Of a stretch of 26,093 bases of DNA, positions 3,080 through 25,720 are shown one piece after another. The translations under genes were made by a program, and so were the position numbers. This DNA is from a virus. Every line of letters begins with the position of its first letter. Within the stretch, counting starts at the first letter, position 1. Location: the IMG/VR virus record IMGVR_UViG_3300044859_000158, positions 1-26,093 of that record; one strand, written 5' to 3'. The notes beneath the pieces are model-generated. The model was not told where the DNA came from. It did no database searches and saw nothing but the letters and a program-made list of their open reading frames with translations.

Positions 3080-3105
3080 AACAATAAAAATTTTTATATT
3101 TTTTA

Positions 3106-6900: not shown

Positions 6901-9900
6901 ACCACCATAAGCAGGGTTACCACCTATTTCAACACCAGTGTGCCATCCTAAAGAAAGTCTTGTATATGTAGCAAGTCCATTACTATATGGTGCCTTTACA
7001 TACATCATATAATAAAGATTTCCATCGGTTCTAGCTCCAGAACTAATACCAGTAGATGAACCTACAGATGATGGGTCTGAATTACTATCTGCTAAATTTA
7101 TGTGTCTAGTAGTTCCACTACTTTGTCCTGTTCTAAAGAAGAACGTACCATCATTATCATAAAAACTATCACCCCAAATTTGAGGTGCTCTGAAAGAAGA
7201 ATCTACACTAGCATCACCAGCAGCACTTAATGTAAATCTTTGTATATGACTTGCACTCCCTGCTTGTCTCAATGCAATACCAAATACACCTTCATACGTT
7301 CCGGTTCCTTTATATGCTCTTAAAGATGCTCTATGGTGTTGTCCATCGGTATCATTAGTACTCATACCAATTTGAACTCTTTGACCGGATGCTAAATTTT
7401 GTACAAACAATGCATCATTAAAATCACCATTAGCTATATTATGAGCCAATGTTAAAAGATATTGAGTGGTAGAACCAAATATACTAGAACCATTTGGATT
7501 TAAGTAATATGCCGTATTATCTATATCGTAATAAATCGGTGCGTACATACCCACACCAGCTCTCATTTCTGATGTAGCTTCGTATGTTCTTGTTCTTTCA
7601 GCATCAATATCAGTACCATCATAAACAGTTGCAGATGCTAAGTAAGTATAGAATGTTGCGGTTGAACCACCTACAATATAAAAGAAGTGAGTTGATGAGA
7701 ATGATGCCGTACCAGAATGAACAAGGAATGCATAATCCTGATATTGACCCGTACCTGCATTTGATGTCAACCATTCACCAGTACCATTAGAACCAATAGA
7801 GTTAGATGCCCATTCAACACTTCTACCAACAGGTATCTTCATTTTGAATACACATAATAACCTTCTACTTGAAGGACCCGTACCTGCTGCGAAGTACCAA
7901 CCACCATAACCAGGACTTGTTCCGTTTGAAGTGGTTGGTGCATGTTGAATTTCTAATACAAATCCACTTCTATTTGGCATATTAGCCGCAGTTCCATCAA
8001 TAAACGAACCATTTTTTCTTGTTATGGTTACAGCTGAACCACCTGCATTGTTGTATACCTGAATTGAGTTACTACCATCTTGAAATTCTTCATCCGGATA
8101 TAATTTGTATCCAGTTGGTTTTAACATACCCCAAATTGCGTTGATAGTACCCGTTGCTGTATTTGAACCAACACTATTTAAAACTTTCAACCCATCAATA
8201 AAAAATTCAGCAGCGTTTAATTGAGATACATTTGAATATCCATTAGGGTCTATATAAAATGCAGTGTTGTTACTATCAATAAATTGTGGTGCTCTATAAG
8301 AACCTCTTGCTTCAGCATATCCTGAATATATTCTTGTTTCCCAAGTATCACCAACACGTGTTTCATGTCTATCAGAGTAACCTAATATAGAAGTAGTAGG
8401 TGTTCCACCCGTACTACCAGCAGTTGCTCTAAATCCAATTACCGATACACCATTTGCAGCTGGGTATAATCTAATATTTTCATTGTAATTATTGTTGTTA
8501 GCAGTATTATAACTCAGCCACATGTTATTACCAATGAATATACCATCAGCAGGTCCATTTAATTGGATAGGAACTAAACCACTAACCGGGTCATAAAATC
8601 CAGTTGAAAGTGAGTTGTTGTTCGGCATCCAAATATATGAGTCCGAACCTTCCATTCTAATATCACCCTGAATTCTTAAATCATTTAGGTTTGAAGTGGA
8701 TGCCCCATCTATAAAATATGCTGTATTATCCGAATCATAAAATATTGGTGCTCTAAAATCTACGTTAGCAGTAATATTTCCAGAACTATTAATATTCATT
8801 CTTAAACTTCCACCAGTAGCATGAGTAATTGCATTATGTGTATAAAAATCTATTTGAGTTGCTGGGTTAGCTTCATATATATTTCCTCCAATATAAATTT
8901 GGTTTGCGGCTGCACTATTATATGCTCCTATAATGGTTGTTCCTTGTGCTTGTGATGTTGCATTATAGTGAGTACCAGTTAAAGTTGAAAATTTATTAGT
9001 ACCTTCACCAGCAGGTCCCATTAGGATATTACCACCAGAACTATTACCAGCAGCAGTTAATCTTATTTTATTAAATGATGGGGAATCGGATGTTCTAACT
9101 GCTTGGTTTAGATAATCAGAAAATTGATAACCATCCCATAAATCCGCATCTAATCCAGTACCAGCTCCATCATTCGCACTATGCCAAATTGTTCCACCAA
9201 TATGCCCTTGATTTGCGGTAGTCATTGTTACCCATCCAACCGATGACCAAGTTGTATTATCCGTTCTATTTCTTATTTTGAATCCTCTAACAGGAGTATT
9301 GTATTCAAACTCCATTTGGACTGTTCCAGTAGACCCACCCATATTAGTAGACCATAATCCCGAACTATATCCTGTATAACTTAAGGTTCTAAATCCATTA
9401 TCAACATAAGTATCAATACTAGTACCAGTTCCTCCACTTAAATTTCTAAAGAACGATGAATTTTGCTGTCCACCTAAATAATCAGAGTTTAAGTTACTAA
9501 CTAAAGTTGTAGATGATACTACGAATGGTGATGTACCAGTTGCTACAGTTGATGTTATTCTATTGAATGATGGTGAATCGGTTGTACGAACATTTTGATT
9601 CATTAAATAAACTTCAGTTGCACCTAATCCAGTATCAATTGTACCACTAAGAACTACGTTACCACTTACTGATAAAGTATTATCTGCTGTCCATCTATCA
9701 GTACTTTCATCCCAATAGAATGATACCGTTGATGATGAACCTCTCCTAACTTCTATACCAGCATTTTCAGTTGGTGCTGATGAACCTGTAAAATCTCCAT
9801 TTAATGTGATTATATTATCACCTAAATTTATTGTATTTGAGTTTACAGTAGTAGTTGTACCATTTACAACTAAATTACCTGTAATTACTGCTGCTCCATT

Positions 9901-12369
9901 TACTGTCAATGTACTACCATCAAACAATAAATTACTTTCAACGGTTGCGTTTGGTGCACTTCCGTTTAATGTGATTACACCATTATTTGTTGTACCAGTT
10001 AATGATAATAATCCAGACGAACCAGACGAACCACTACTTCCAGATGTACCAGAAGTTCCTGATGTTCCAGAAGTTCCAGAAGTTCCAGAAGTTCCAGATG
10101 AACCACTTGTTCCAGAAGTTCCTGATGTACCAGAAGTTCCAGAAGTACCACGTGTTCCACTACTTCCAGAAGTACCACTTGTTCCAGATGTACCACTACT
10201 TCCAGAAGTCCCAGAAGTACCACTAGTTCCGCTAGTTCCGCTTGTACCACTACTTCCGCTTGTACCAGATGTACCAGACGTTCCCGATGTACCACTACTT
10301 CCGCTTGTACCACTACTTCCGCTTGTACCACTACTTCCAGACGTTCCAGAAGTACCACTAGTTCCGCTAGTTCCGCTTGTACCACTACTTCCGCTTGTTC
10401 CAGAAGTTCCACTTGTACCGCTACTTCCACTTACACCACTTGTACCAGAAGTTCCACTTGTACCACTTGTACCAGATGAACCAGCACTTCCACTAGCTCC
10501 GCTTGTTCCAGAAGTTCCCGATGTACCAGAAGTACCACGTGTACCAGAAGTTCCACTACTTCCACTCACACCGCTTGTTCCAGAAGTTCCACTTGTACCA
10601 CTTGTACCACTTGTACCACTTGTACCAGATGAACCAGATGAACCAGCACTTCCACTAGCTCCACTTGTACCACTCGTTCCAGAAGTTCCACGTGTACCGC
10701 TTGTTCCACTACTTCCACTCACACCGCTTGTTCCAGAAGTTCCGGATGTACCAGAAGTTCCCGATGAACCAGCACTTCCACTAGCTCCGCTTGTACCAGA
10801 CGAACCAGATGTACCACTTGTACCAGAAGTACCACGTGTACCAGAAGTTCCAGATGTTCCAGATGTTCCACTTGAACCACTTGCTCCTCCTATACCACTT
10901 GTACCAGAAGTTCCCGATGTTCCAGAAGTTCCGGATGTACCAGATGTACCACTCGTTCCAGAAGTTCCTCCCGTACCATTTGTACCACCTAATCCACCAG
11001 CTCCAGTTATTCCAGAAGAACCAGTTGAACCAGATGTACCACTTGTTCCGCTTGTACCAGATGTTCCTGCTGTTCCACTTATTCCACTTGTACCAGATGT
11101 ACCACTTGTACCGCTTGTACCACTACTTCCACTTATTCCGCTTGTGCCACTTGTTCCGCTTGTACCACTACTTCCACTTATTCCACTTGTACCACTTGTT
11201 CCGCTTGTACCACTACTTCCAGAAGTTCCGGATGTACCAGATGTACCACTACTTCCACTTATTCCACTTGTACCACTACTACCAGTTAAACCAGATGTTC
11301 CAGACGTTCCCGAAGTACCACTACTACCAGAAGTTCCACTTTGTCCAGATGTACCAGAAGTTCCAGAAGTTCCAGAAGTTCCTGATGTACCTCTTGTTCC
11401 GGATGTTCCTGATGTACCAGATGTGCCGGATGTTCCACTACTACCAGATGTACCACTTGTACCAGAAGTACCACGTGTACCAGAAGTTCCAGATGTTCCT
11501 GATGTACCACTTGTTCCAGATGTTCCTGATGTACCAGACGTTCCAGACGTTCCACTACTCCCAGAAGTTCCAGATGAACCAGATGTTCCGGATGAACCAG
11601 TTGAACCAGATGTACCACTTGTTCCAGAAGTTCCCGATGTACCAGACGTTCCAGAAGTTCCCGATGTACCAGAAGTTGCAGCTGCAAATCTTCTACTAAT
11701 TCTACCAGTTGTAGTATTCAATACCAAAACCTCATTTGTTGTATTATCGGTTGGTATTGTCTCCCCACCTACAAAGATAGAACCACTTACATTAAGAGAA
11801 CCAGTTATTTCTTGTCTATCAATAACGTTGTCACCAAATTTATTTGAACCAGATGAAAATATTACAGATGATGAAATAAAGGTTGTATGTAATTCGGTTG
11901 CTGTAATTCTGCCACCAACGTTTAGGTTTTGTGTTATTACAATCGAACCAGTTACATTTGAATTTCCGTTTACTGCTAATCCACCACTTATTGAAGTTGG
12001 TACGTTTATTACCAATCCATTATTAGGTGAAATTTGTGCAATTGCAGAACCTGATTTAATTTGATTTAGGTCTCCTAAAGCTCCAGCTGATAAGTTAAAC
12101 AATCCACTACCATCTCCTCTAAATAAAGATGAACTTATTGAAGATGATATTGCCAATGACCCAGTTATTTGAGTATTAGATTTTATTTCCAATGGTAAGT
12201 TTCCAAAAGAATCTATTTCGTATGCTTGTATTCCGGAAGCAGTAACACTACCAACAACATTTAGTGATGCTGATGAAAACTCTACTATTTTACTACCACT
12301 TACAAACAAACCAACTAAGGATGAACTTAGTTGATTTAACCCATTAGGACTTTTACCCAAATATTCCAT
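3550..12369 (-). CDS. Giant tail fibre with collagen-like shaft and S74 self-cleaving chaperone
   Basis: This 2939-residue protein is most likely a trimeric host-recognition fibre. Residues 1-231 are a beta-rich N-terminal region sharing SSGSNxFGDxxxDRQExTGS with the other giant fibre. Residues 232-786 are 185 uninterrupted Gly-terminated triplets, mostly TSG or SSG. After the shaft comes SLTGTTNNG...ATVESNLLFDG, then fibre motifs TTDSPSFN and IWHSANDGAG...DADLWDGYQ. Residues about 1200-2710 hold some eleven repeats of RAPIFYDSNDTGYYxDPNG type. Residues 2818-2939 are a peptidase S74 intramolecular chaperone beginning at SDERLKDVIG and ending in a coiled coil (LVEAIKEQQTEMDEMKSEI). In that family the C-terminal domain trimerises the fibre and then cuts itself off. 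The gene starts 12 nt after a small beta-sandwich gene, without a visible Shine-Dalgarno, so translation may be coupled. A structural role other than host binding cannot be excluded. Confidence 0.88.
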   Translation of the reverse strand: MEYLGKSPNGLNQLSSSLVGLFVSGSKIVEFSSASLNVVGSVTASGIQAYEIDSFGNLPLEIKSNTQITGSLAISSSISSSLFRGDGSGLFNLSAGALGDLNQIKSGSAIAQISPNNGLVINVPTSISGGLAVNGNSNVTGSIVITQNLNVGGRITATELHTTFISSSVIFSSGSNKFGDNVIDRQEITGSLNVSGSIFVGGETIPTDNTTNEVLVLNTTTGRISRRFAAATSGTSGTSGTSGTSGTSGTSGTSGSTGSSGTSGSSGTSGSSGTSGTSGTSGTSGTSGTSGTSGTSGTRGTSGTSGTSGSSGTSGTSGTSGTSGTRGTSGTSGTSGTSGTSGQSGTSGSSGTSGTSGTSGLTGSSGTSGISGSSGTSGTSGTSGSSGTSGTSGTSGISGSSGTSGTSGTSGISGSSGTSGTSGTSGTSGISGTAGTSGTSGTSGTSGSTGSSGITGAGGLGGTNGTGGTSGTSGTSGTSGTSGTSGTSGTSGIGGASGSSGTSGTSGTSGTRGTSGTSGTSGSSGTSGASGSAGSSGTSGTSGTSGTSGVSGSSGTSGTRGTSGTSGTSGASGSAGSSGSSGTSGTSGTSGTSGTSGTSGVSGSSGTSGTRGTSGTSGTSGTSGASGSAGSSGTSGTSGTSGTSGVSGSSGTSGTSGTSGSSGTSGTSGTSGTSGTSGSSGTSGSSGTSGSSGTSGTSGTSGTSGSSGTSGTSGTSGTSGTSGSSGTSGTSGTSGSSGTRGTSGTSGTSGTSGTSGSSGTSGTSGTSGTSGTSGTSGSSGSSGSSGLLSLTGTTNNGVITLNGSAPNATVESNLLFDGSTLTVNGAAVITGNLVVNGTTTTVNSNTINLGDNIITLNGDFTGSSAPTENAGIEVRRGSSSTVSFYWDESTDRWTADNTLSVSGNVVLSGTIDTGLGATEVYLMNQNVRTTDSPSFNRITSTVATGTSPFVVSSTTLVSNLNSDYLGGQQNSSFFRNLSGGTGTSIDTYVDNGFRTLSYTGYSSGLWSTNMGGSTGTVQMEFEYNTPVRGFKIRNRTDNTTWSSVGWVTMTTANQGHIGGTIWHSANDGAGTGLDADLWDGYQFSDYLNQAVRTSDSPSFNKIRLTAAGNSSGGNILMGPAGEGTNKFSTLTGTHYNATSQAQGTTIIGAYNSAAANQIYIGGNIYEANPATQIDFYTHNAITHATGGSLRMNINSSGNITANVDFRAPIFYDSDNTAYFIDGASTSNLNDLRIQGDIRMEGSDSYIWMPNNNSLSTGFYDPVSGLVPIQLNGPADGIFIGNNMWLSYNTANNNNYNENIRLYPAANGVSVIGFRATAGSTGGTPTTSILGYSDRHETRVGDTWETRIYSGYAEARGSYRAPQFIDSNNTAFYIDPNGYSNVSQLNAAEFFIDGLKVLNSVGSNTATGTINAIWGMLKPTGYKLYPDEEFQDGSNSIQVYNNAGGSAVTITRKNGSFIDGTAANMPNRSGFVLEIQHAPTTSNGTSPGYGGWYFAAGTGPSSRRLLCVFKMKIPVGRSVEWASNSIGSNGTGEWLTSNAGTGQYQDYAFLVHSGTASFSSTHFFYIVGGSTATFYTYLASATVYDGTDIDAERTRTYEATSEMRAGVGMYAPIYYDIDNTAYYLNPNGSSIFGSTTQYLLTLAHNIANGDFNDALFVQNLASGQRVQIGMSTNDTDGQHHRASLRAYKGTGTYEGVFGIALRQAGSASHIQRFTLSAAGDASVDSSFRAPQIWGDSFYDNDGTFFFRTGQSSGTTRHINLADSNSDPSSVGSSTGISSGARTDGNLYYMMYVKAPYSNGLATYTRLSLGWHTGVEIGGNPAYGGTRFMNDSPGVSTTELMGVGVGDQNVRITNTLFVPYIADRDNTAFYLNPADTGTSINIAGSLRAANYNRPAILSVSSGTGSSGGSLAIQQETAEGWTGIFVDYEPYTGWGLWHDNPNNMFAFTSEGSTGQIRSFTVPSRVSGNRTAYEKFRVDQNNGDVIVGRDGYAQASFRAPIFYDNDNTAYFINAAERSLLNRIEVSRNGAYGGYVEADLIVGHGGNDRRGFGQAGGSNIMLRSSAKSSITALDENQNLGQISYENLAWTIGENVGWGTQRVEFPGDVRAPIFYDLNDTGYYVDPAGGNARIGRDLYVSGYAGGVVGNRIIVGDTSTPYSLLDGNVRPMVYIRGNYPVLTLDHTVTSNTNHGPTIQFVHNGLNNRQWVFGSTGDGISLDIGFSNGSQGNSNWNPHNGIAGYLGTTFMRFRENGNIGLGSQGDWGAIGGGEPGYAIDTRGHFYNNSRVDAPIFYDANDTGRYVDPNGESRLNGSRIYPTLATGRGSYSQPLANLILHPTSASPSGYANIEFFSDYNTPSDGAAITYFTGIDGGEASQLRIRLNNDFNDGIALWGGYIDFNCQTVDGPSQGYRNNIFSFQRVGTEIAFINSNGVMQANGDMRAPIFYDSNDTSYYVNPNGFSNFAQSNGQVVTITKTGSAPGNNSTMLVTNSYGNHSWGITGEFRIEANGGADRPSILFSNGFDSQTWSCGYGYNDSGFFRINHDHGHRNGSWGTTDFYIDRGGNSYSNGSSRAPIFYDQNDTGRYTDPTGQSFIRNLCVGDNNYNHGYPGVLQIGSTSYNYNFQNGSWAGSITTGILANCADEWEFSIHDSGTSVESVFIYSGGRLLMGRNIGWGTTYIEAAESFRAPIFYDSNDTGTYIDPTGTSRIGAIQISPRSSTSNEIRFYGVVGDNPGSYNHGAIIERIWRNGDESELLIFKGNDPDVSTIHDRLRLAACGRVVFHSYNTYGNVDDYMSASGTGNINGSGFFNGNDLYVTGNVTAYYSDERLKDVIGPIPNALSKIMSLRGFYYTNNETAKKWGYTDDSIQLGLSAQEVQKVCPELVQPAPFDIEADGTSISGEHYLTVKYDRLIPVLVEAIKEQQTEMDEMKSEIAELKKQLMELLKK
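4270..8760 (-). repeat. About eleven RAPIFYDSNDTGYYxDPNG-type protein repeats
   Basis: Each repeat has the core (R)AP-I-F/Y-Y-D-x-N/D-D/N-T-x-Y/F-Y/F-x-D/N-P-x-G, followed by a variable beta-rich insert. Cores lie near 8698-8760, 8236-8305, 7490-7550, 7125-7195, 6740-6810, 6335-6400, 6003-6065, 5462-5528, 5012-5075, 4618-4680 and 4270-4335, so the period is about 330-540 bp. The five or so nearest the C-terminus are the best conserved and the three near 6700-7550 are degenerate. Similar repeats occur in tail fibres of other environmental T4-like phages. Each probably packs as a beta module on the trimeric fibre, with the inserts as exposed, diversifying surfaces. Confidence 0.8.
10012..11676 (-). 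repeat. Collagen-like (Gly-Thr-Ser)n shaft, 185 triplets
   Basis: Residues 232-786 are 555 residues in unbroken triplet register, dominated by TSG and SSG with scattered ISG, VSG, ASG, SAG, STG and six TRG. I see no Pro, Lys, Asp or Glu. At DNA level it is a 9-bp periodic array visibly richer in GC than its flanks, with mixed synonymous codons (ACT/ACA, TCT/AGT/AGC, GGA/GGT). Phage collagen-like segments usually form trimeric rod sections of fibres, but a Pro-free helix would be unusually weak. Confidence 0.9.
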
Positions 12370-13057: not shown

Positions 13058-13501
13058 TTAGGGTTTTATAGGCCATTCTATATTAAAAGGATTTTGTTGA
13101 TTGGTTATATCTCTTAATTGTTGTCTATATGCTGTCCACAAATCTTTTATTGTTTGTGAAACATCACTTAATTGTGTCCAATCGCATTCTGTAAGTAATT
13201 GATTTCTAATAAACCTAATTTCTTCCCATTGATTTTCCAATCTATAATTTATTTCAGATTCTGTTGCATTTGTACTTACCCAATTTTGATAATACACACC
13301 ATCCGTTAAAACAGGAGTTCCTTCGATAATATTTTTTGTGTAATCATTTGGCATTGGGGTTGATGTTACGAAATATACACCCCATTCACTTAAAGCTTCT
13401 TCCGATAATTCGGCTGGTAAACTTACATTAGGATATGCTTCTCTCAATTCCTTAATAGTATAAGGATAGTTTATGGTTTCATTTATAATTCTTAAATACA
13501 T
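13058..13501 (-). CDS. Tail fibre assembly chaperone-like protein
   Basis: The 147-residue product ends with the signature of phage tail assembly chaperones (the PF16778-like group): RNQLLTECDWTQLSD near residues 97-111, WTAYRQQLRDITNQQ near 121-135 and the final NPFNIEWPIKP. Such proteins help fold or trimerise fibre tips and are usually encoded next to their fibre. The N-terminal part (MYLRIINETINYPYTIKELREAYPNVSLP) is also typical of the group, reading an amide-rich beta start and then a linker. Its ATG comes 1 nt after the stop of the upstream PKD/LRR gene, pointing to translational coupling. The candidate clients are the giant 14417-25720 fibre and the PKD/LRR protein in the same group; the other giant fibre has its own S74 chaperone. 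Confidence 0.85.
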   Translation of the reverse strand: MYLRIINETINYPYTIKELREAYPNVSLPAELSEEALSEWGVYFVTSTPMPNDYTKNIIEGTPVLTDGVYYQNWVSTNATESEINYRLENQWEEIRFIRNQLLTECDWTQLSDVSQTIKDLWTAYRQQLRDITNQQNPFNIEWPIKP

Positions 13502-13502
13502 A

Positions 13503-14405
13503 TTACTTAAAGTTTGCAGGTATTGTTGCGAAATTTGTTAAATTAACACAATTATTAAAACAATCAGTTCCAGATGGAGTTGGTGTTCTATTCCATAATT
13601 CAGGTGCTGTTCCTGTTAGGGCGTTTGATGTAGAACTCATATTGTAGCAGTTAGTAAAAACTAATGCATTTATATTATTCGTAAATTGTAATACGTTTGT
13701 AAGAGCTCTACAATTTCTAAAAGTACCAGAAAAATTTGATGCGTTTATATTTTGGTCAAATAATGTAGATGGTACTGATGTTAATGCCGGACATGCAAAG
13801 AAACAAGATGCAAATGTTGTTGCGTTTGGCACATTGTCAAATAATCCAGTTGGTACTCCAGTTAATGTTAATATTGATGCAAATGCGTTGGAAAATGTTG
13901 TTGCGTTTGGTGAATAATCAAATATATCAGCGGGTATATTTGCCAATCTAGTTGCTTGAAAAAACGATGTAAAATTAACAACTTCGTTTAATCCTGTGTA
14001 CCCACCAACATCATCAATAGTAGCACTACCAGGAATGGATGTTAGATTTTGACAACCATAAAAATTTATAGTTCTTAATCCAACAATTCCCCATTGTACT
14101 AATTCGGTAATAAGGTTTCTAATATTAATATTATTATTCACCGAAAATCCTGGCATAAATCCACTAATAGTTATTGTGTAAGTACCAGCTGATGCGTATG
14201 TGTGTATTCTATCAGATGATGAAGATGAAGTTATTAATGGGGATGATGTACCATCTCCCCAACTTATTGTAAGACTAGGTCTTAATAAACCAAAATCAAC
14301 TAATGGTACAGTAAATACTGTATTTGTTGTAGTTGTTGTAATTCTAAAAACAAACGGAAACACTAGTGCTGAATCCGATGGTATTAATTTTCTTGCTATA
14401 CTCAT
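13503..14405 (-). CDS. PKD-like and BspA-type leucine-rich repeat protein, possible adhesin
   Basis: This 300-residue protein combines two surface-protein folds. Residues about 20-82 look like a PKD domain: ISWGDGTSS at 47-55 and HTYASAGTYTITISG at 68-82. Residues about 110-300 are leucine-rich repeats of the BspA / DUF285 type, with units such as NATTFASCFFACPALTSVPSTLFD and NCRALTNV, each pairing a Cys-containing helix-turn with LTxVP. No signal peptide is seen, as expected for a virion protein. It starts 11 nt after the giant fibre stop and ends 1 nt before the fibre chaperone ATG. Position suggests a receptor-binding or tip protein of the upstream fibre. Both folds are common in bacterial surface proteins, so acquisition from a host is possible. 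The virion location is inferred, not shown. Confidence 0.75.
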   Translation of the reverse strand: MSIARKLIPSDSALVFPFVFRITTTTTNTVFTVPLVDFGLLRPSLTISWGDGTSSPLITSSSSSDRIHTYASAGTYTITISGFMPGFSVNNNINIRNLITELVQWGIVGLRTINFYGCQNLTSIPGSATIDDVGGYTGLNEVVNFTSFFQATRLANIPADIFDYSPNATTFSNAFASILTLTGVPTGLFDNVPNATTFASCFFACPALTSVPSTLFDQNINASNFSGTFRNCRALTNVLQFTNNINALVFTNCYNMSSTSNALTGTAPELWNRTPTPSGTDCFNNCVNLTNFATIPANFK

Positions 14406-14416: not shown

Positions 14417-17400
14417 TTAACTCATATTTTTTCCAACTACAAATCCGTAATATGTTGTACCATTATTAAATGTAAAGAATGATAATACATCCGTACCGAT
14501 TGATGTTAATATTGGTGCACTTCCATTAACCCAATCTACACTAGCAGGCCATGTTATAGAATATCCTCCGGCATTAACCATTGTAAATGTAAATCCAAAT
14601 GCGTTTGATGATGGAGGATTTGTAAACAATATTGCCGATGTACCAGTAAATTGTCTTCTAAAGTTATTTGCAAGGGAAAGGTCTATTGTTGTATTTGTAC
14701 CAGGTCCCAAATCCAAATATGTTTCTCTAAATGTTGTAGAAGTTATATGAGTAGAAGATACTATATTTCCAGTTATAGATAAACTAGTACCATCAAATGT
14801 CAAATTACTTTCTACATTAGCTTGAACAGGAACATCCTGATATGTAAGTAACCCATTATTAGTTGTACCATTTAAACTAAATCCATTTGTACCAGAAGTT
14901 CCAGACGTAAAGTTTGGAGGAGTTGTACCTGATGTACCAGACGTACCTGTTTGCCCAGATGTACCACCACTTCCAGCCGTACCAGATGTAAAGTTTGGTG
15001 GAGTTGTACCTGATGTACCAGACGTACCAGTTTCACCGGATGTTCCACCACTTCCAGATGTTCCAGAAGTAAAGTTTGGTGGAGTTGTACCAGAAGTTCC
15101 AGATGTACCAGTTTGACCAGATGTACCACCACTTCCAGATGTTCCAGAAGTAAAGTTTGGAGGAGTTGTTCCAGAAGTTCCCGATGTACCGGCTTGTCCA
15201 GTTGAACCAATTCCACCTGATGTTCCTGAAGTACCACTACTACCAAAGAATGTGCCATTTAAACCAGAAGTACCAGATGAACCTCCACTACCTGAAGTTC
15301 CGGATGAACCCGCCGTTCCTGCAGTTCCAGTTGAACCAGAAGTTCCAGAAGTTCCAGACGTACCAGAAATTCCAGAAGAACCAAAGAAAGTTCCATCAAA
15401 TCCAGAAGTTCCAGAAGTTGCGGATGTACCAGACGAACCAGATGTACCAGCCGTTCCAGTAGAACCACTACTACCAGCCGTTCCAGTAGAACCAGATGTT
15501 CCACTACTTCCAAAGAAAGTTCCATCAAATCCAGAAGTTCCAGATGTACCACTCGTTCCAGATGAACCAGATGTACCAGCCGTTCCAGTAGAACCAGAAC
15601 TTCCAGATGAACCAGATGTTCCACTACTACCAAAGAAAGTTCCATCAAATCCAGAAGTTCCTGCTGTTCCAGAAGAACCATTCGAACCACTTTCTCCGCT
15701 TGTACCAGAAGTTCCAGCCGTACCACTCTCTCCACTAGTACCACTACTTCCAAAAAATGTACCATCGAATCCAGAAGTTCCACTTGAACCAGATGTTCCA
15801 CTTGTACCAGCACTACCATCAGTACCAGCTCCACTTGTACCACTACTTCCGCTTGAACCACTACTTCCAAAGAATGTACCATCTAAACCAGAAGTACCAG
15901 ATGAGCCACTTGAACCAGAAGTTCCAGATGTTCCAGAACCAGAAGTACCACTACTACCACTTGAACCACTACTACCAAAGAAAGTTCCATCAAATCCAGA
16001 AGTTCCAGATGAACCGCTCGTTCCAGATGTACCACTACTTCCACTTGTTCCACTACTTCCACTTGTACCAGCTGTACCATTAGTTCCACTACTACCAAAG
16101 AAAGTTCCATCTAATCCAGAAGTACCACTTTCACCAGAAGTTCCCGATGTACCAGCAGTACCAGTTGAGCCATCAGTTCCCGATGTACCATTAGTTCCAT
16201 TAGTTCCAGAAGTTCCATTTGAACCACTACTTCCAAAGAATGTACCATCTAAACCAGACGTACCACTACTTCCAGAAGAACCTCCACTACCAGAAGAGCC
16301 CGATGTACCAGAAGTTCCAGAAGTTCCAGATGTTCCATCAGAACCCGTTGTTCCAGATGTTCCACTACTTCCAAAGAAAGTTCCATCTATACCAGAAGTA
16401 CCAGAAGTTCCGCTTGTACCAGAAGTACCAGATGTTGCACTTGTCCCAGAAGTTCCAGATGAGCCAGAAGAACCAAAGAAAGTTCCATCTAATCCAGACG
16501 TCCCAGAAGTTCCACTTGTACCACTTGTACCACTACTACCAGAAGTTCCTGAAGTACCATCAGTTCCAGATGTTCCAGAAGTTCCATCTATACCAGACGT
16601 ACCAGATGAACCAGTTGTTCCTGATGTTCCCGATGTACCATCCGTTCCAGTTGAACCAGATGTACCGCTTGAACCAGATGTACCACTGGTGCCACTAGTT
16701 CCATCAATACCAGAAGTACCGCTCGTTCCAGATGAACCAGTTGTACCCGATGTTCCACTACTTCCCGAAGTTCCACTACTTCCAGATGAACCATCTATTC
16801 CCGAAGTTCCAGAAGTACCATCTATTCCTGAAGTTCCACTACTACCTGATGTTCCACTACTTCCCGATGTACCACTTGTACCAGACGTTCCGCTTGTACC
16901 ATCTACACCAGAAGTACCCGATGAACCAGATGTTCCAGAAGTTCCATCTATACCAGAAGTACCAGATGAACCAGTTGTTCCCGATGTACCAGAAGAACCA
17001 CTACTACCAGAAGTTCCACTACTTCCATTTGAACCCGATGTACCAGAAGTTCCGCTTGTACCGGATGTTCCAGAAGAACCAGTTGTACCCGATGTTCCAC
17101 TACTTCCACTACTTCCAGATGAACCACTACTTCCCGATGTACCACTACTACCACTTGTACCACTACTTCCCGATGTACCACTAGTTCCAGACGAACCAGA
17201 TGTTCCAGACGAACCATCTTCTCCGCTTGTACCAGAACTACCACTACTTCCACTCGTTCCAGAAGTTCCGCTTGTACCAGACGTTCCAGCTGAACCAGTT
17301 GTTCCCGATGTTCCAGAAGTTCCGGATGTACCACCACTACCACTTGTACCAGATGTTCCCGATGTTCCACTTATACCATTACTACCTGATGTACCGCTTG

Positions 17401-20400
17401 TTCCAGAAGTTCCAGAAGTTCCGGATGTTCCACTTACTCCACTTGTTCCAGATGAACCACCACTTCCACTACTACCAGATGTACCACCAGTACCAGCAGT
17501 TGCCGATGAACCTGATGTTCCCGATGTTCCAGAAGTTCCGGATGAACCACCACTACCACTACTTCCAGAAGAACCACCACTACCAGCTGTTCCAGAAGTA
17601 CCAGATGAACCTCCACTACCAGATGTTCCAGAAGTTCCAGATGAACCACCACTACCACTACTTCCACTACTTCCAGAAGAACCACCACTACCACTACTTC
17701 CAGAAGAACCACCACTACCAGCTGTTCCAGAAGTACCAGATGAACCACTTGTTCCAGATGTTCCTGATGTTCCACCACTACCAGAAGAGCCTGATGTACC
17801 AGATGTTCCAGATGTACCAGATGTTCCAGATGTACCGCTTGTTCCAGATGTTCCACCACTACCACTACTTCCAGATGAACCAGATGACCCAGATGTTCCA
17901 GACGTTCCAGATGTACCTTCAGAACCAGTTGTTCCGGATGTTCCGCTACTTCCTGAAGTTCCGCTACTTCCAGATGAACCAGATGTTCCACTACTTCCAG
18001 ACGAACCAGTAGAACCACTAGTTCCACTACTTCCGCTTGAACCAGATGTTCCGCTTGAACCAGATGTTCCACTACTTCCGCTTGAACCAGATGTTCCGCT
18101 TGAACCAGATGTTCCACTGCTACCACTTGTACCAGATGTTCCACTTGAACCAGATGTTCCATCTACTCCACTTGTGCCAGATGAACCGCTACTTCCAGAT
18201 GAACCAGATGTACCATCTACTCCACTTGTACCAGAAGTTCCCGATGTTCCAGAAGTTCCCGATGAACCAGCAGAACCATCAAAACCAGAAGTACCACCAG
18301 TTCCAGAAGAACCCACAGCAGCTGCTATATTTCTTCTTTCTAATTTTTTTGTTATACTATTCCAAATTACAACATCTTCAGATGAACCAGTTTGTAAACT
18401 TTGTAATAATAAACTACCACTAACACCTAAACTACCACTAATAGTTAAGTTTGCGTTAATATTACTATCTTTATTTACTTGTAAGAATGATGCCGTATTT
18501 ACTCCTTCCGCATTTAGAGCGTAAAGAGCGTATGATGCGGTAAATGCTAATGAAGCAGTACCCACCAACATTGAAGAAGTTTGTGAACTAAGTAAATCAC
18601 CAATCCCAGCACCACCACCACCTAATATAGTTACCAATACTCCATCTGAACCAGATGTTGTAACACTTACACCACTACCAGTAAAATTAATTTTTGCAGT
18701 TTGTGATTTTACTAATGAACTTGTATAATAAACAAATAAATCAGTTCCCCCACCATCTCCTGCATTTAATGCGTATGATGCTGTTAATGCGTAAGAAGAA
18801 CTTACTGCACTAAACACTCTCATCGATGATGTTTGTGAATTTCTTACAAAGTTTTGTAAATCACCTAATGCTGATAATGATGCAGAATCAAACCCAACAA
18901 CACTTTCAGCTACACCAGCTCTAATTGCGTATGATGCGGATAGTACATTCCCAAATACTCTATCACCCGGTATTGTACCATTAATTAATGAACCACCACT
19001 TCCAATTACAACGTGTCCAGAAGTTAATCCAGCAAATTTAATTTGTATGGTATCATCATTGATTGATATTATTTGACCAGGCAATATTTGGTCTTCAGAA
19101 CCAGTTGCGTACACCTGAACCATTGGATATCTTATACCTAAATTGTGTACGATAGTTAAATCACTTACACTATTGAATGATACAGTTTCAGTTAATGTTG
19201 TTTCAGGCTGAGGTACAAAATATCCTCTATTTTCATCAAATCTTAAGATATCATATTCCGCTGATGCAGTTGGTCCTACTCCTTGGAAATTATATGTTCC
19301 TAAGAATGAACCAGTAAATAATGGTGCAAATATTAAATTACTTGCTGTTATTTGATTTGATACTACTAAATTACCATCAATTAAAGATGATGTATTTACT
19401 ACAAATCCAAAATTTGGAGATATTCTAGCTATGGCAGAACCAGATTGTAATAGTGATGTTTCAAATGCTAAATTAGCAATATTAATATTTGTTAATCCAC
19501 TACCATCTCCAATAAACGATGAACCAGATGATATTATTACATTTCCTCCGGTTACAAACAATCCACCAGTAACACTTAAGTTACCAGATACAAATGTTCT
19601 AGTTCCAATTTGCAATCCTCTATTTGGAGAAATTACCGCTTCAAATGAACCAGACTGAATTCTATCAATTTGCAAATCATCCAATGCATCAGGTGGAATG
19701 TTAAATAATCCACTACCATCACCATCATATCTTGCCGCAGTTATTGGTACGTTTACATTTAATTTAGTTGGGTCAATAATTGCTATACCAGACCCAGAGT
19801 TAATTTTATTTAATTCTAAGTTTTCAATCGCATCGGGTGGGATATTGAATAAACCACCACCATCACCAAAATAAATAGATGCGGTAATTGAACCACTAAT
19901 TGCTACGGATGATGTGAATTGAGATTGATATGAACCAGACAATGGTGCAGTTGTTACAATAAATTGTTGTCCATTTGCTACCGATGCTGTTGCAGAACCA
20001 CTAGCTATTAAAGGTGATGCTGCTGCTTGTACATTTGTTAATTGAGAACCATCTCCTATAAATGTAAATGCTTTTACACTACCACTTACATCAATACTTC
20101 CAGTGAATCTAGAACCAATAGCTGAACCAGTTGCTGATGTTGTTACTATAAAAGTATTTCCACTCTGAACCGATGCTGTTGCAGAACCACTTGCTATTAA
20201 AGGTGCTGCTGCCGCTTGTACATTAGTAATAAATCTACCATCACCAAATATAAAATCTGATGCGTAGAGTGAACCACTAACACTAATCGAACCAGTAAAT
20301 TCAGAACCAATTCCAGAACCAGTTGCTCCGGTTGTTATTATTAATTTATTTCCACTTTGTACCGATGCTGTTGCTGACCCACTTGCTATTAAAGGTGCTG

Positions 20401-23400
20401 CTGCAGCTTGTACGTTTGTTATAAATCTGCCATCACCAAATAAGAAATCAGTTGCTCTAATACTTCCACTAACTTCAATTGAACCAGTAAATTGAGAACC
20501 TAATTGAGAACCAGTTCTATCAGTAATAACTTTAAATCCCTCATCAGGTGTTACAGATGCTGTTATCGAACCAGATACAATAAATGATGATAATAATGCA
20601 TCTTCCGTTAATGCTGAACGAGGTATGTTTCTTAAAAATGTACCTTCTGCATAAATGAATGATGATGATTCTATAAATAAACCACCACTTGTATCATTTA
20701 CAAATAAACTACCAGATACAGAAATTGAACCAGTAAATTTAGATGCTATTGATGCTGTAAATACGCCATTTTCACCTAAAGAAGATGTAAATGGAGAAGT
20801 TACAACAAATCCAAAATTAGGTGAAACTGATGCGGTTACTGAACCTGATTTAATTTCCGTACTAATTAATGCATCTTCGGTTAATGCTGAACGGGGTATT
20901 CTTCTAAGAAATGTACCATCAGCGTATAAGAACGAAGAAGAATTTATAAATAAACCACCACTAATATCATTCACAAATAAACTACCAGATACAGAAATTG
21001 AACCAGTAAATTTAGATGCTATTGATGCGGTAAATGAACCATCCTCACCAAATGATGATGTGAATGGAGTAATTACAATAAATCCAGTATCAGGTGCAAT
21101 TGATGCGGTAGCACTACCACTTGCTATTCTAACTGAATCTTCTGTTATAGCAGAACGAGGTATATCAAATAATCCTCTACCACTACCACTAAACATAGAT
21201 GCAGTTAAATTACCTTCTATTTTAGTATTACCAATAAATTTAATTTCAGCAGGAATAGTTAATTCATTCAATAAATTAATCACCCCACCCATAGAACCAT
21301 GTAATTGGCAATTATAATACAAAGTATCAGGAGCATCTAATGGTGGTGTAAAAATAATTAAACCACTATCATCTCCATTATTAGTTATACCACTATTATA
21401 TGCATTACCAGTTCCAGTAGAATTTATAGTTTTAATCCAAAACGGATGTCCACTTGCATTTACATTAAATGTATAAGTTACACCTTTTACTAAAGTTATT
21501 GTTGGATTTGAACCACTTACTAATGCATTACTTATATTATAAGCACTACTTCCATCGTTTGTTACTAAAAATACATTATCTATTAAATAAGAAGGAGTAG
21601 GTCTTCCAGACGAAGATACAATAAAACTACCATCAAATCTAGAGTGAGTATTTACCTCAAATCCTTCGGTTGGTGAAATAGATGCCGTTGCACTTCCACT
21701 AAATATTTTTGTTGAATCAATTGCTAAATTGGCAAGTGTAATATTGTTAAGGAATCTACCATCACCTACAAAGAATGAACCACTTTTTACGGTCACACTT
21801 CCACTTACATCAACCGAACCAGTAAATTCAGAACCACTTTCGGCAGATTTTACTATGAATCCAAAATTAGGTGATACCGATGCCGTTACCGAACCCGATT
21901 TGATTTCAGTTGATATTAATGCATCTTCACTAAGAGCATTTCTAGGAATATTTCTTAAATAAGTACCTTCACCAAAATACGCAGATGATGAATCTAATAT
22001 TAAAGAACCAGATGTTGCAGTTACTCTTAAACTTCCTGTAATTGCAACACTACCAGTAATTCTTGAACCACTAGCTACCGATTCAACAACAAATCCTCTA
22101 TCAGCTAATGCGGAAGCAGTTACACTTCCACTTGCAATTCTAAATAATTCTTGAGAAAGTGCAGAAAATGGAATATCGGTTAAACCAGCACCACTACCAC
22201 TAAATACGGATGCTGATACACCCATTCTAAAGTTAGAACTACCACTTACTACCAAGCTTCCACTAAATATAGAACCACTAGCAACAGATGTTACTACAAA
22301 TCCAAAATTAGGAGATACAGATGCAGTTACAGACCCACTAAATATTTTTGATGTATCTAAATCAGATAGTGCAGCAATTGGTATATCAAATAATTGTCTA
22401 CCACTACCACTAAATGAACCTGTTCTTAAAAATACTGAACCACTTAGGAATAAAGAGCCACTAAATTGTGAACCTCTTTCGGTAGATTCTACTCTAAATC
22501 CAAATTGAGGTGTTACGGATGCGGTTACAGACCCAGATAAAATTCTATTAGTATCTAATGCATCTGGTGCTAATGCTGTTCTTGGGATATCAAATAATCT
22601 AGCACCACTTCCAGAGTAAGATGAACCAGAAACTAATTCAATACCTCTGCTGCCACTTACAAATATTGAACCCGTAAATTGTGAACCAAATTGTGCTGAT
22701 TTTACTATAAAACCTTTATCAGGTTCAGCTGATGCTGTTACACTACCACTAGCTATTTGCGTTGTCTCTAATGGTGGTATTATAATGTTTGTTAATCTAC
22801 TACCATCACCAACAAATGAACCGCTTATATCGAATGCACTCATTGATACAGCCGCTACAGCCGATGCAATTACCGAACCACTTACATCAATTGAACCAGT
22901 AAATTCAGAACCAACGGTTGCAGATTCTACTCTAAATCCAAATTGGGGTGTTACCGATGCAGTTATACTTCCACTTGCTATTCTAAATGAATCTTCAGTT
23001 AATGCAGAACGAGGTATATTAAACAAGCCAGAACCATCTCCTTGAAAGAATGAACCACTAAATGAACCAGTAAATTCTCTAGCTCTAACAATTTCGCTAA
23101 CATTTAAACTACCGGTTATAACAACATCGGGCCCTCTTTGTAAAATTCCATCAACTATATTGATTATTCCACCCATCAAAGAATGGAATTGGCAATTATA
23201 ATATAGAGTATTCGGTGTTTCGGATGTTGGTGTGAATAAAATTACACCATTATCATCACCATTATTAGTTACACCTGTATTATATACATTTGTAGTTCCA
23301 GTAGATGGTATTGTTTTTATATAAAATGGGTGGCCACTTGCATTTAAGTTGAATGTATAAGTTACATTTCTTACTAAAAATAATGTTGGGTTTGCATTAA

Positions 23401-25720
23401 TAGCCGCTCCATCAAAAGTGTATGAAATACTACCATTATTTGTTACATTAAATACAGTTTGTATTGATGATGTTGGTAAATACGTTGCGGATGCTGATAT
23501 AAGCATACTACCTGTAAAGGTTGAGAACGAATTTACTCTAAATCCATTATTTGGTGTAATTGATGCGGTTACAGACCCACTTCCAATTCTTGAAAGGTCT
23601 AAATCTTCAATTGCACTAATGGGTATTTCAAATAATCTAGCACCACTACCAGAGTAAGATGAGCCCGATGCTATCTCAATACCCCTAGCACCACTTACAA
23701 AAAGTGAACCTGTAAATTGCGAACCACTTTCTATGGATTGTACTCTAAATCCAAAATCGGAAGTTACGGATGCCGTTACACTAGAACTAGCTATTAAATT
23801 TGATAGGAGTGCATCCGGAGTAAGTGCTGATCGTGGTATATCAAATAGTCTTGCACCACTTCCAGAATAAGATGAACCGGAGGTCAATTCTATACCCCTG
23901 CCCCCACTTACAAAAAGAGAACCTGTAAATTGAGAACCACTTTCTTCTGATTTAACTATAAATCCAAAGTTAGGTGATACTGATGCCGTTACACTACCAC
24001 TTGCTATTCTAAAAGCATCTCCTGTAAATGATGTGAATGGTATATTAAATAACCCCTCACCACTACCACTAAAAAAACCACTACCAGACGGAATAAATAC
24101 ACTTCCACTAATTTGAATAGAACCCGTAAATTGGGACCCACTTGTTTGAGATTCTACCTTAAATCCAAAATTAGGTGATACTGATGCCGTTACTGAACCA
24201 GACTCTATTTTTGGAGCTACTGCAGCTTGTACGTTTGTTAATTGAGAACCATCTCCAATGAATGAGAATGCCTTTACACTTCCACTAACATCAATACTTC
24301 CAGTAAATTGAGAACCAAATTGAGAACCAGTAAATGGAGTTTCTACTTTAAATCCAAAATCAGGTGAAACCGATGCGGTTACTGAACCTGATTTTATTTC
24401 CGTAGATATTAATGCATCTTCGGTTAATGCTGAACGAGGTATATTTCTTAGGAATTGAGCATCTCCATAATAAGATGAACCAGATGCCAATTGTATCGAA
24501 CCACTAAATGGTGATACGAATAAACTACCACTAATATTAACCGAACCACTAAGTTGAGAACCACTTTGTTGTGATTCTACTTTAAATCCAAAATTAGGTG
24601 ATACTGATGCGGTTACACTACCACTAGCTAATTCAGTTGATACTAACGAATCAATATTAAGTGCTGATAATGGTATATTAAATAATCCCTCACCACTACC
24701 ACTAAAGAAACCACTACCAGATGGTATTACAACGTTTCCACTTACAAAAAGTGAACCAGTAAAAGTAGAACCACTTGCTAATGAGTTTACGTTAAATCCA
24801 AATACAGGTGAAACAGATGCCGTTACACTACCACTTGCTATTTTATTTGCTACTAATGAATCTATATTAAGTGCCGAAAGTGGGATGTTAAATAATCCCT
24901 CACCACTACCACTAAAGAAACCACTACCAGATGGTATGGTTATATTTCCACTTACAAAAAGGGAACCTGTAAAAGTTGAACCCTTCTCTATTGAAAGTAC
25001 TCTAAATCCATCTTCAGGTGTTACTGATGCGGTTATTGAACCGGTTGATAATCTTGTAGCTTGTGGTAAATTAAATATATCTCTACCATCTCCAAAGAAA
25101 GAACCTGTAAATGAACTACTAATTGATTGTGATGCAGTTATATCATTTACAATAATGGATGAACTTACTAATACAGATCCAGTAAATTCTTGTCTATCAT
25201 CATATCTATCACCAAAAATATTTGAACCCGATGAATAAATTATTGATGATGATATATAACTTACAATTATAGTTTCTGCATAAATTGTATCATCAACATA
25301 AAGGTCACCTTGAACTCTAGTGTTTGTATTGATTACTAAATCGCCTTGCTTAAAAGATGCCGTTGCCGAACCACTTGCTATAATTCGTGCTTCAGGTAAA
25401 TTAAATAATTGTGAACCATCTCCACCAAAAGAACCAGTAAAAGAACCAGTAAAACTACCACTTAAAGATTGGGCACTACCAGTAAATGAACCAGTAAATT
25501 GTCCAGTTACCCTATCTAAATCTAAACTTCTTACAAATCCTCTATTACCTTGGTCATCTGAAACTACAATAGCTGGAGAACCAGAAAGAGATGCTGAGAA
25601 ATTTGGGACACCTAAATTCGGTTCAGCTTGAGATAAATCTAAAAACTGATACCTATCTTGTGTTACATTTTTGGGTGAAATTACCCTTACCCTACCCGTT
25701 AATAGATTACTAATTGCCAT
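14417..25720 (-). CDS. Giant 3767-residue tail fibre with beta repeats, two cupredoxin-like domains and collagen-like shaft
   Basis: An exceptionally long fibre-like protein. Residues about 1-110 are an N-terminal region with SGSFTGS runs. Residues about 110-2120 hold some 25 repeats built on SGSVTASVSPNFGFxVxS, GSxFTGSLFVSG and SGSGxxLFxIPxSAL. Two cupredoxin-like domains interrupt them (about 744-858 and 1374-1488). Residues about 2180-2246 carry a fibre beta domain with IVHNLGIRYPMVQVYATGS. Residues 2470-3613 are a collagen-like shaft with eleven GTFFG breaks and four TTPPNF units. Residues 3614-3767 form a C-terminal tip domain widespread in phage fibres (GFTFTMVNAGGYSITWPASV ... VVGKNMS). 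There is no S74 domain, so folding may depend on the chaperone encoded two genes downstream. The ATG has GGAAAG 6 nt upstream and an AT box 20 nt upstream. The protein could also be a whisker or baseplate-attached fibre. Confidence 0.88.
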   Translation of the reverse strand: MAISNLLTGRVRVISPKNVTQDRYQFLDLSQAEPNLGVPNFSASLSGSPAIVVSDDQGNRGFVRSLDLDRVTGQFTGSFTGSAQSLSGSFTGSFTGSFGGDGSQLFNLPEARIIASGSATASFKQGDLVINTNTRVQGDLYVDDTIYAETIIVSYISSSIIYSSGSNIFGDRYDDRQEFTGSVLVSSSIIVNDITASQSISSSFTGSFFGDGRDIFNLPQATRLSTGSITASVTPEDGFRVLSIEKGSTFTGSLFVSGNITIPSGSGFFSGSGEGLFNIPLSALNIDSLVANKIASGSVTASVSPVFGFNVNSLASGSTFTGSLFVSGNVVIPSGSGFFSGSGEGLFNIPLSALNIDSLVSTELASGSVTASVSPNFGFKVESQQSGSQLSGSVNISGSLFVSPFSGSIQLASGSSYYGDAQFLRNIPRSALTEDALISTEIKSGSVTASVSPDFGFKVETPFTGSQFGSQFTGSIDVSGSVKAFSFIGDGSQLTNVQAAVAPKIESGSVTASVSPNFGFKVESQTSGSQFTGSIQISGSVFIPSGSGFFSGSGEGLFNIPFTSFTGDAFRIASGSVTASVSPNFGFIVKSEESGSQFTGSLFVSGGRGIELTSGSSYSGSGARLFDIPRSALTPDALLSNLIASSSVTASVTSDFGFRVQSIESGSQFTGSLFVSGARGIEIASGSSYSGSGARLFEIPISAIEDLDLSRIGSGSVTASITPNNGFRVNSFSTFTGSMLISASATYLPTSSIQTVFNVTNNGSISYTFDGAAINANPTLFLVRNVTYTFNLNASGHPFYIKTIPSTGTTNVYNTGVTNNGDDNGVILFTPTSETPNTLYYNCQFHSLMGGIINIVDGILQRGPDVVITGSLNVSEIVRAREFTGSFSGSFFQGDGSGLFNIPRSALTEDSFRIASGSITASVTPQFGFRVESATVGSEFTGSIDVSGSVIASAVAAVSMSAFDISGSFVGDGSRLTNIIIPPLETTQIASGSVTASAEPDKGFIVKSAQFGSQFTGSIFVSGSRGIELVSGSSYSGSGARLFDIPRTALAPDALDTNRILSGSVTASVTPQFGFRVESTERGSQFSGSLFLSGSVFLRTGSFSGSGRQLFDIPIAALSDLDTSKIFSGSVTASVSPNFGFVVTSVASGSIFSGSLVVSGSSNFRMGVSASVFSGSGAGLTDIPFSALSQELFRIASGSVTASALADRGFVVESVASGSRITGSVAITGSLRVTATSGSLILDSSSAYFGEGTYLRNIPRNALSEDALISTEIKSGSVTASVSPNFGFIVKSAESGSEFTGSVDVSGSVTVKSGSFFVGDGRFLNNITLANLAIDSTKIFSGSATASISPTEGFEVNTHSRFDGSFIVSSSGRPTPSYLIDNVFLVTNDGSSAYNISNALVSGSNPTITLVKGVTYTFNVNASGHPFWIKTINSTGTGNAYNSGITNNGDDSGLIIFTPPLDAPDTLYYNCQLHGSMGGVINLLNELTIPAEIKFIGNTKIEGNLTASMFSGSGRGLFDIPRSAITEDSVRIASGSATASIAPDTGFIVITPFTSSFGEDGSFTASIASKFTGSISVSGSLFVNDISGGLFINSSSFLYADGTFLRRIPRSALTEDALISTEIKSGSVTASVSPNFGFVVTSPFTSSLGENGVFTASIASKFTGSISVSGSLFVNDTSGGLFIESSSFIYAEGTFLRNIPRSALTEDALLSSFIVSGSITASVTPDEGFKVITDRTGSQLGSQFTGSIEVSGSIRATDFLFGDGRFITNVQAAAAPLIASGSATASVQSGNKLIITTGATGSGIGSEFTGSISVSGSLYASDFIFGDGRFITNVQAAAAPLIASGSATASVQSGNTFIVTTSATGSAIGSRFTGSIDVSGSVKAFTFIGDGSQLTNVQAAASPLIASGSATASVANGQQFIVTTAPLSGSYQSQFTSSVAISGSITASIYFGDGGGLFNIPPDAIENLELNKINSGSGIAIIDPTKLNVNVPITAARYDGDGSGLFNIPPDALDDLQIDRIQSGSFEAVISPNRGLQIGTRTFVSGNLSVTGGLFVTGGNVIISSGSSFIGDGSGLTNINIANLAFETSLLQSGSAIARISPNFGFVVNTSSLIDGNLVVSNQITASNLIFAPLFTGSFLGTYNFQGVGPTASAEYDILRFDENRGYFVPQPETTLTETVSFNSVSDLTIVHNLGIRYPMVQVYATGSEDQILPGQIISINDDTIQIKFAGLTSGHVVIGSGGSLINGTIPGDRVFGNVLSASYAIRAGVAESVVGFDSASLSALGDLQNFVRNSQTSSMRVFSAVSSSYALTASYALNAGDGGGTDLFVYYTSSLVKSQTAKINFTGSGVSVTTSGSDGVLVTILGGGGAGIGDLLSSQTSSMLVGTASLAFTASYALYALNAEGVNTASFLQVNKDSNINANLTISGSLGVSGSLLLQSLQTGSSEDVVIWNSITKKLERRNIAAAVGSSGTGGTSGFDGSAGSSGTSGTSGTSGTSGVDGTSGSSGSSGSSGTSGVDGTSGSSGTSGTSGSSGTSGSSGTSGSSGSSGTSGSSGTSGSSGSSGTSGSTGSSGSSGTSGSSGSSGTSGSSGTSGTTGSEGTSGTSGTSGSSGSSGSSGSGGTSGTSGTSGTSGTSGTSGTSGSSGSGGTSGTSGTSGSSGTSGTAGSGGSSGSSGSGGSSGSSGSSGSGGSSGTSGTSGSGGSSGTSGTAGSGGSSGSSGSGGSSGTSGTSGTSGSSATAGTGGTSGSSGSGGSSGTSGVSGTSGTSGTSGTSGTSGSNGISGTSGTSGTSGSGGTSGTSGTSGTTGSAGTSGTSGTSGTSGSSGSSGTSGEDGSSGTSGSSGTSGTSGSSGTSGSSGTSGSSGSSGSSGSSGTSGTTGSSGTSGTSGTSGTSGSNGSSGTSGSSGSSGTSGTTGSSGTSGIDGTSGTSGSSGTSGVDGTSGTSGTSGTSGSSGTSGSSGTSGIDGTSGTSGIDGSSGSSGTSGSSGTSGTTGSSGTSGTSGIDGTSGTSGTSGSSGTSGSTGTDGTSGTSGTTGSSGTSGIDGTSGTSGTDGTSGTSGSSGTSGTSGTSGTSGLDGTFFGSSGSSGTSGTSATSGTSGTSGTSGTSGIDGTFFGSSGTSGTTGSDGTSGTSGTSGTSGSSGSGGSSGSSGTSGLDGTFFGSSGSNGTSGTNGTNGTSGTDGSTGTAGTSGTSGESGTSGLDGTFFGSSGTNGTAGTSGSSGTSGSSGTSGTSGSSGTSGFDGTFFGSSGSSGSSGTSGSGTSGTSGSSGSSGTSGLDGTFFGSSGSSGSSGTSGAGTDGSAGTSGTSGSSGTSGFDGTFFGSSGTSGESGTAGTSGTSGESGSNGSSGTAGTSGFDGTFFGSSGTSGSSGSSGSTGTAGTSGSSGTSGTSGTSGFDGTFFGSSGTSGSTGTAGSSGSTGTAGTSGSSGTSATSGTSGFDGTFFGSSGISGTSGTSGTSGSTGTAGTAGSSGTSGSGGSSGTSGLNGTFFGSSGTSGTSGGIGSTGQAGTSGTSGTTPPNFTSGTSGSGGTSGQTGTSGTSGTTPPNFTSGTSGSGGTSGETGTSGTSGTTPPNFTSGTAGSGGTSGQTGTSGTSGTTPPNFTSGTSGTNGFSLNGTTNNGLLTYQDVPVQANVESNLTFDGTSLSITGNIVSSTHITSTTFRETYLDLGPGTNTTIDLSLANNFRRQFTGTSAILFTNPPSSNAFGFTFTMVNAGGYSITWPASVDWVNGSAPILTSIGTDVLSFFTFNNGTTYYGFVVGKNMS
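14420..14881 (-). other. C-terminal fibre tip domain
   Basis: Residues 3614-3767. It begins with NGTTNNGLLTY and ANVESNLTFDGTSLSITGN, matching the segment that follows the shaft in the other giant fibre. It continues as the common phage fibre ending: LDLSLANNFRRQFTGTSA, FGFTFTMVNAGGYSITWP, WVNGSAPILTSIGTDVLSFF and YYGFVVGKNMS. This ending is found on many environmental phage fibres and is probably the distal trimeric tip. Confidence 0.8.
14885..15190 (-). repeat. Four copies of an 81-bp tandem repeat (TTPPNF unit)
   Basis: The sequence AAAGTTTGG recurs at 14909, 14990, 15071 and 15152, exactly 81 bp apart. Each unit encodes 27 residues beginning TTPPNF followed by seven Gly triplets (TSG TSG SGG TSG QTG TSG TSG and close variants). 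TTPPNF keeps the triplet register but drops two glycines, and holds the only prolines of the shaft. Confidence 0.9.
15243..16490 (-). repeat. Eleven DGTFFGSSG modules spaced 102-138 bp
   Basis: The plus-strand CCAAAGAA (or CCAAAAAA) that encodes the FFG break starts at 15243, 15381, 15510, 15630, 15750, 15867, 15975, 16095, 16233, 16371 and 16473. Spacings are 138, 129, 120, 120, 117, 108, 120, 138, 138 and 102 bp. Each break is preceded by FDG, LDG, IDG or LNG and followed by SSG. The distal third of the shaft is therefore segmented every 34-46 residues. Confidence 0.9.
18985..19185 (-). other. Fibre beta domain of VHNLG type
   Basis: Residues about 2180-2246 contain LTIVHNLGIRYPMVQVYATG, then ILPGQIISINDDTIQIKFAG and LTSGHVVIGSGG. 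The pattern 'T-V/I-x-HNLGxR-xxVQVY ... I-x-x-xDxNTIxI-F ... SGxVVI' recurs in many phage fibre proteins as a small beta sandwich. It marks the junction between the repeat region and the shaft. Confidence 0.65.
21259..21600 (-). other. Cupredoxin-like domain 2
   Basis: Residues about 1374-1488. Copper ligand candidates are His1425 (GHPFWIKT), Cys1471, His1474 and Met1477 (NCQLHGSMGGVI). The spacing H-45-C-x2-H-x2-M and the YTFNVNASGHPF and LYYNCQLH strands fit a type-1 copper fold, with the Cys-His-Met loop spacing of amicyanin. All four ligands are intact. Confidence 0.75.
23148..23490 (-). other. Cupredoxin-like domain 1
   Basis: Residues about 744-858. Copper ligand candidates are His797 (GHPFYIKT), Cys843, His846 and Met849 (NCQFHSLMGGII). 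Spacings equal those in domain 2. The strands VRNVTYTFNLNASGHPF, GVILFTPTSETP and LYYNCQFH match the family of small cupredoxin-like inserts (YYxCxxHxxMGG) seen in environmental phage structural proteins. Copper binding is predicted, not shown. Confidence 0.75.

Follow-up and report, generated by a model that had tools for sequence, protein, structure and literature searches.

A giant tail fibre of an aquatic phage carries two cupredoxin-like domains with the ligand set of type-1 copper sites

The giant fibre gene and its neighbourhood

The window, that is, the whole stretch of DNA analysed here, is the complete IMGVR_UViG_3300044859_000158 record (26,093 bases), and neither tRNA nor Rfam RNA was found along its length. 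The gene under study (14417–25720, minus strand) encodes P0001, a giant fibre protein of 3767 residues. Its neighbours, also on the minus strand, include a tail tube protein similar to T4 gp19 (101–589; match to phrog_4542, 1e-27), a contractile tail sheath (642–2963), a second giant fibre of 2939 residues, P0002, which ends in a Peptidase_S74 chaperone (3550–12369), and a tail fibre assembly chaperone (13058–13501). The presence of sheath, tube and chaperone identifies the phage as contractile-tailed, and the closest annotated sheath belongs to Microcystis phage Mel-JY01 (47% identity). We take the source of P0001 to be a contractile-tailed, T4-like aquatic phage.

A protein of 300 residues (13503–14405, minus strand) adjoins P0001 and shows a weak match to PKD (E 5e-4); it is possibly another surface protein. 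Two long frames on the plus strand (752 and 1090 residues, at 9806–12064 and 15252–18524) run antisense to GTSG repeats and look like artefacts of repeat composition.

P0001 is made of repeat modules (residues ~1–2100), most of them 63–91 residues long, a collagen-like GTSG tract (~2470–3490) and a C-terminal fibre domain. The N-terminus matches the tail fiber family phrog_8745 (3.4e-6), and the C-terminus matches the tail fiber families phrog_9017, 7760 and 3904. At two places the module spacing widens, to 202 and 193 residues, and each of these places accommodates a cupredoxin-like domain. Both insertions occur at the same point, just after the FTGS-like strand of the module (FTGSMLISAS and FDGSFIVSSS). 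The initial annotation of this DNA had described one domain that breaks the repeat series, and the widened spacing of 202 residues bears this out; the second copy had been overlooked. P0002 is devoid of such a domain.

Copy 1 spans residues 753–857 (23150–23464, minus strand) and copy 2 spans residues 1379–1485 (21266–21586, minus strand). Each carries two His residues, a Cys and a Met as a putative ligand set. In copy 1 the set is made of His797 (codon at 23330–23332), Cys843 (23192–23194), His846 (23183–23185) and Met849, the axial ligand (23174–23176), all on the minus strand. His797 lies within SGHPFYI, and the other three lie within YYNCQFHSLMGG. When P0001 was read again, the reading frame, the numbering and the sequence contexts given in the initial annotation for these four residues proved correct. 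The equivalent residues of copy 2, also encoded on the minus strand, are His1425 (21446–21448), Cys1471 (21308–21310), His1474 (21299–21301) and Met1477 (21290–21292). Cys843 and Cys1471 are the only two cysteines in the 3767 residues of P0001, and four of its eight histidines are likewise site ligands. In 69 of 107 distinct related ORFs longer than 800 residues, every Cys is the Cys of the site. The placement of both cysteines and of half the histidines at the two sites, together with HMM matches in other phages (E down to 2e-25), indicates that the arrangement is not a product of chance.

Fold and relationship to blue copper proteins

An AlphaFold2 model of the cupredoxin-like domain, built with 63 relatives, had a pLDDT of 96 and a pTM of 0.88 and contained eight strands. 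When 222 residues of context were modelled, only the cupredoxin part was confident (pLDDT ~94–98), which is consistent with an independent domain set in a fibre that single-chain modelling fails to capture. In a Foldseek search of the PDB the top match was rusticyanin (E 2e-5, probability 1.00), followed by AcoP and the three-domain copper nitrite reductase of Hyphomicrobium; pseudoazurin with an engineered amicyanin loop, plastocyanin and amicyanin were also matched. TM-scores against these cupredoxins were modest (~0.5). Judged by its eight strands and by top PDB matches that are all cupredoxins, the predicted fold appears to be a Greek-key beta sandwich. The structure prediction proposed in the initial annotation thus gave a confident beta sandwich that matches cupredoxins.

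Profile comparison pointed in the same direction. When a profile of the diverse domain family was aligned by hhalign with bacterial PF00127 (Copper-bind) proteins of the plastocyanin/azurin family, the probability was 90.1% (E 1.6e-6), as against a maximum of 0.64% for 20 column-shuffled control profiles, and all four ligands (His, Cys, His and Met) were paired in register. From this register and from the fold match, we infer that the four ligands would lie near enough to hold one ion. The fold and the His-Cys-His-Met register are therefore features that the phage domain has in common with rusticyanin, amicyanin, plastocyanin and pseudoazurin; in contrast with these proteins, the phage domain is built into a virion fibre and has neither a signal peptide of its own nor a redox partner.

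A PDB sequence search with copy 1 yielded no match, and a PDB search with the family profile yielded weak matches only, one of which was the Cys-His-Met end of copper nitrite reductase (E 0.42). No Pfam or NCBIfam family was above its cut-off for the domain, and no member of the domain family scored high enough to pass the gathering threshold of any copper family in Pfam: the cut-offs of both PF00127 (Copper-bind) and PF13473 (Cupredoxin_1) were missed, the best PF00127 match in the family having an E of 0.067. Copy 1 scored 22.1 bits (E 1.5e-4) against PF25489, the At5g54830-like domain, whose cut-off is 27 bits; PF25489 may be, at most, a distant relative.

The initial annotation had also likened the C-x2-H-x2-M loop to that of amicyanin. 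The comparison is sound, as the spacing of Cys843, His846 and Met849 is that of Cys92, His95 and Met98 in amicyanin (PMC12723479). The residue that follows the first His is, however, Pro in the phage domain, unlike Asn54 in amicyanin and Ser86 in rusticyanin (PMC12723479). The second shell therefore differs from that of known blue sites, so that neither the colour nor the potential of the site is predictable. Two specific identities can be discarded: the domain is not an amicyanin, as it is internal to a fibre of 3767 residues, and it is not a phage-borne plastocyanin for photosynthesis, as it is embedded in a fibre and closest to fibre and connector proteins.

Distribution of the domain and behaviour of its ligands

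In phages the domain is widespread, with matches in 272 records that come almost entirely from cyanophages. The proteins that contain it are fibres as well as gp9, the connector between baseplate wedge and tail fibre. Isolates that carry the domain include Prochlorococcus phages P-SSM2 and P-SSM7 and Synechococcus phage S-SM1. Both copies of P0001 match PHROG 677, the family of cyanophage T4-like gp9 (E 2.2e-25 for copy 1 and 9.2e-26 for copy 2), and the homology falls in the C-terminal domain of that profile (positions ~285–411 of 412). Hence, gp9 and P0001 share a domain family and differ in its use: gp9 has a single C-terminal copy behind a T4_gp9_10_N domain, while P0001 has two internal copies. 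Another parallel is the PSSM2_028 fibre of phage P-SSM2, in which a domain 56% identical is likewise located within a collagen-repeat fibre, although that fibre is shorter and the flanking modules are different. In most related phages (G084–G094) a further copy is found in a second giant protein of ~3000–4700 residues, ~13–16 kb away.

Just downstream of cyanophage gp9, gp10-like ORFs (L255–L334) contain a related-looking beta domain without the four ligands, which may represent an ancient paralogue of the gp9 domain that has no site. It was pulled in by an early iterative HMM and set aside before the ligands were counted.

Relatives were also detected in bacterial proteins that look secreted, either alone behind an N-terminus resembling a signal peptide or joined to CHRD-like domains (a weak Pfam match). 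These proteins, from Methylotenera, Acidobacteria and flavobacteria (the latter CHRD-fused), have the same four ligands and mostly ~44–56% identity in the best segment. The domain is, however, stand-alone or C-terminal in such exported cellular proteins rather than internal to a fibre. No Pfam or NCBIfam family was above its cut-off for these relatives, and the genes that flank the stand-alone cellular ones, inspected by eye, had no evident copper function. Marine alphaproteobacteria (within L091–L115) have two such domains in tandem in a single protein, and fusions to CHRD-like domains are seen in Flavobacteria. Weaker fold matches were obtained with 'beta-sandwich proteins' of Pithovirus/Marseillevirus, structural matches from giant viruses (BFVD A0A481Z6J5, A0A481Z7Q7 and A0A481YVH3).

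All four ligands were intact in 225 of 239 copies sharing less than 90% identity (NR90), a count tilted towards intact sites because searching relied in part on motifs that include the ligands. When only non-seed copies were considered, with a mean pairwise identity of 31%, the site was intact in 48 of 52. The Cys was absent from 12 of the 239 copies, and in 10 of these 12 the second His was gone as well (Fisher p 5e-15, kinship among copies uncorrected). The rest of the domain did not follow the same course: 18 other conserved columns were kept at 86% in Cys-less copies vs 88% in intact ones. A tree of the copies required at least nine changes of state between intact and site-less; the ligand columns were kept in the tree, which tends to cluster site-less copies and hence lowers the number of changes. 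The codons of the ligands vary synonymously among phages, with CAT/CAC at 184/62 and 181/65 for the two His and TGC/TGT at 141/105 for the Cys.

The position of the losses followed a pattern of its own. In seven lineages of giant fibres the site was lost from the first copy (L185, L167, L073, L042, L024, L015 and L187), where Ser or Asp replaces the Cys, while all later copies keep H-C-H-M. Loss from the second copy was never seen in giant fibres. With a number as small as seven and kinship unmodelled, a two-sided sign test gives ~0.016. Several lineages do without the site, so it cannot be essential for the fold. Altogether, the counts of intact sites, the recount in non-seed copies, the codons and the losses in giant fibres are those of ligands conserved as a functional set.

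A putative metal site on the phage fibre

A ligand set of two His, a Cys and a Met on a cupredoxin fold has a single well-known function, which is to hold copper. We consider it likely, on the grounds of sequence and model, that both domains of P0001 are genuine metal-binding cupredoxin sites of a type-1-like kind, and the metal held is probably copper. The initial annotation had left two possibilities, namely that the fibre binds copper or that the fold has been kept as a rigid plug. Copper binding is favoured because the ligands are conserved as a set and lost as a set, and because copies without the site keep the fold.

One may still argue that the fibre acquired a cupredoxin for its stability and rigidity, as a knob or spacer, and that the ligands are inherited leftovers in a metal-free domain. 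Site-less copies that retain the fold do occur, and the related domain of the gp10 neighbours wholly lacks the ligands. However, one would expect leftovers to drift singly and in either copy. The actual observation is that 225 of 239 copies are intact and that losses are mostly joint; furthermore, the ligand codons of intact copies change only synonymously, and the rest of the fibre has almost no Cys. Joint loss, and loss from the first copy only, speak for a metal site in use rather than a relic fold, and we regard the latter as quite improbable. It also seems unlikely that the site is occupied by a different metal (zinc, or Cu(I) only) or serves for a redox contact in which no metal takes part. 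Engineered cupredoxins are able to take zinc, and the Pro that follows the first His sets this site apart from known blue ones; on the other side, all four residues are the ligands of copper cupredoxins and are in register with them.

If copper is accepted as the metal, the fibre would display the two cupredoxin domains as side knobs, each holding one copper ion. The ion would probably be taken from the medium or from the lysed host, since assembly occurs in a reducing, copper-poor cytoplasm, or might be scavenged in the host. A trimeric fibre, as most fibres are, would thus carry six ions. What a loaded knob does is more open to speculation. A tentative interpretation, weakly inferred and plausible rather than probable, is that it makes surface contact at adsorption. 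Such a role might require one well-placed site per chain, as suggested by the second copy never having been seen to lose its site, and the first copy would be partly redundant.

A purely structural metal is an alternative. Copper, zinc or Cu(I) could stiffen and stabilise the knob against environmental proteases and heat and have no direct part in contact, and we take this to be a serious candidate that falls somewhat short of probable. The intact site is the rule across extracellular fibres of differing architecture, which fits a general role in stability. On the other hand, site-less copies persist alongside intact ones within one fibre, and the losses in giant fibres, always in the first copy and never in the second, suggest a need that is specific to position. 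Stabilisation and surface contact appear about equally likely. A further version of contact is that a hypothetical host surface protein for uptake of copper or other metals recognises the copper-loaded knob. The tip of the T4 gp37 fibre holds seven iron ions by means of HxH motifs, and the idea of a Trojan horse has been published for iron on phage tails (PMC11705849). This precedent, and the location of the domain in tail fibres and baseplate-fibre connectors, speak for the proposal. It is, however, a doubtful one: both copies belong to the N-terminal half of P0001, away from the distal tip of the fibre. The parallel with gp37 is also limited to the presence of metal on a phage fibre, as the residues, the fold and the metal are all different (PMC11705849).

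No report of a cupredoxin, blue copper or plastocyanin-like domain in a structural protein of a phage emerged from a literature search, in agreement with the initial annotation, which knew of no experimental function. The fold itself was already known; what appears to be undescribed in the literature searched is its use on phage fibres as a copper site that seems intact, together with the nearly all-or-none behaviour of the ligands.

Should the sites hold copper, centres of the blue-copper type would be present on the exterior of the particle in a large group of phages. The notion of metal-bearing phage tails would be extended from iron to copper, a domain that is unannotated and very common in the structural proteins of cyanophages would acquire a function, and copper availability would be linked in a testable manner to phage adsorption in cyanobacteria. 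An extreme speculation, rather unlikely as a whole, is that many aquatic phages, especially cyanophages, bear type-1 copper sites on their fibres and connectors, so that their virions are copper-loaded metalloprotein particles; that adsorption requires one site or more on each long fibre, attachment being copper-dependent; and that the copper bound to phages constitutes a pool of the metal in lakes and oceans.

An unusual domain combination was found in the Actinomycetia phage DSL-LC01 (L084), in which one protein contains a YHYH domain and a cupredoxin-like domain and is encoded beside collagen-repeat genes.
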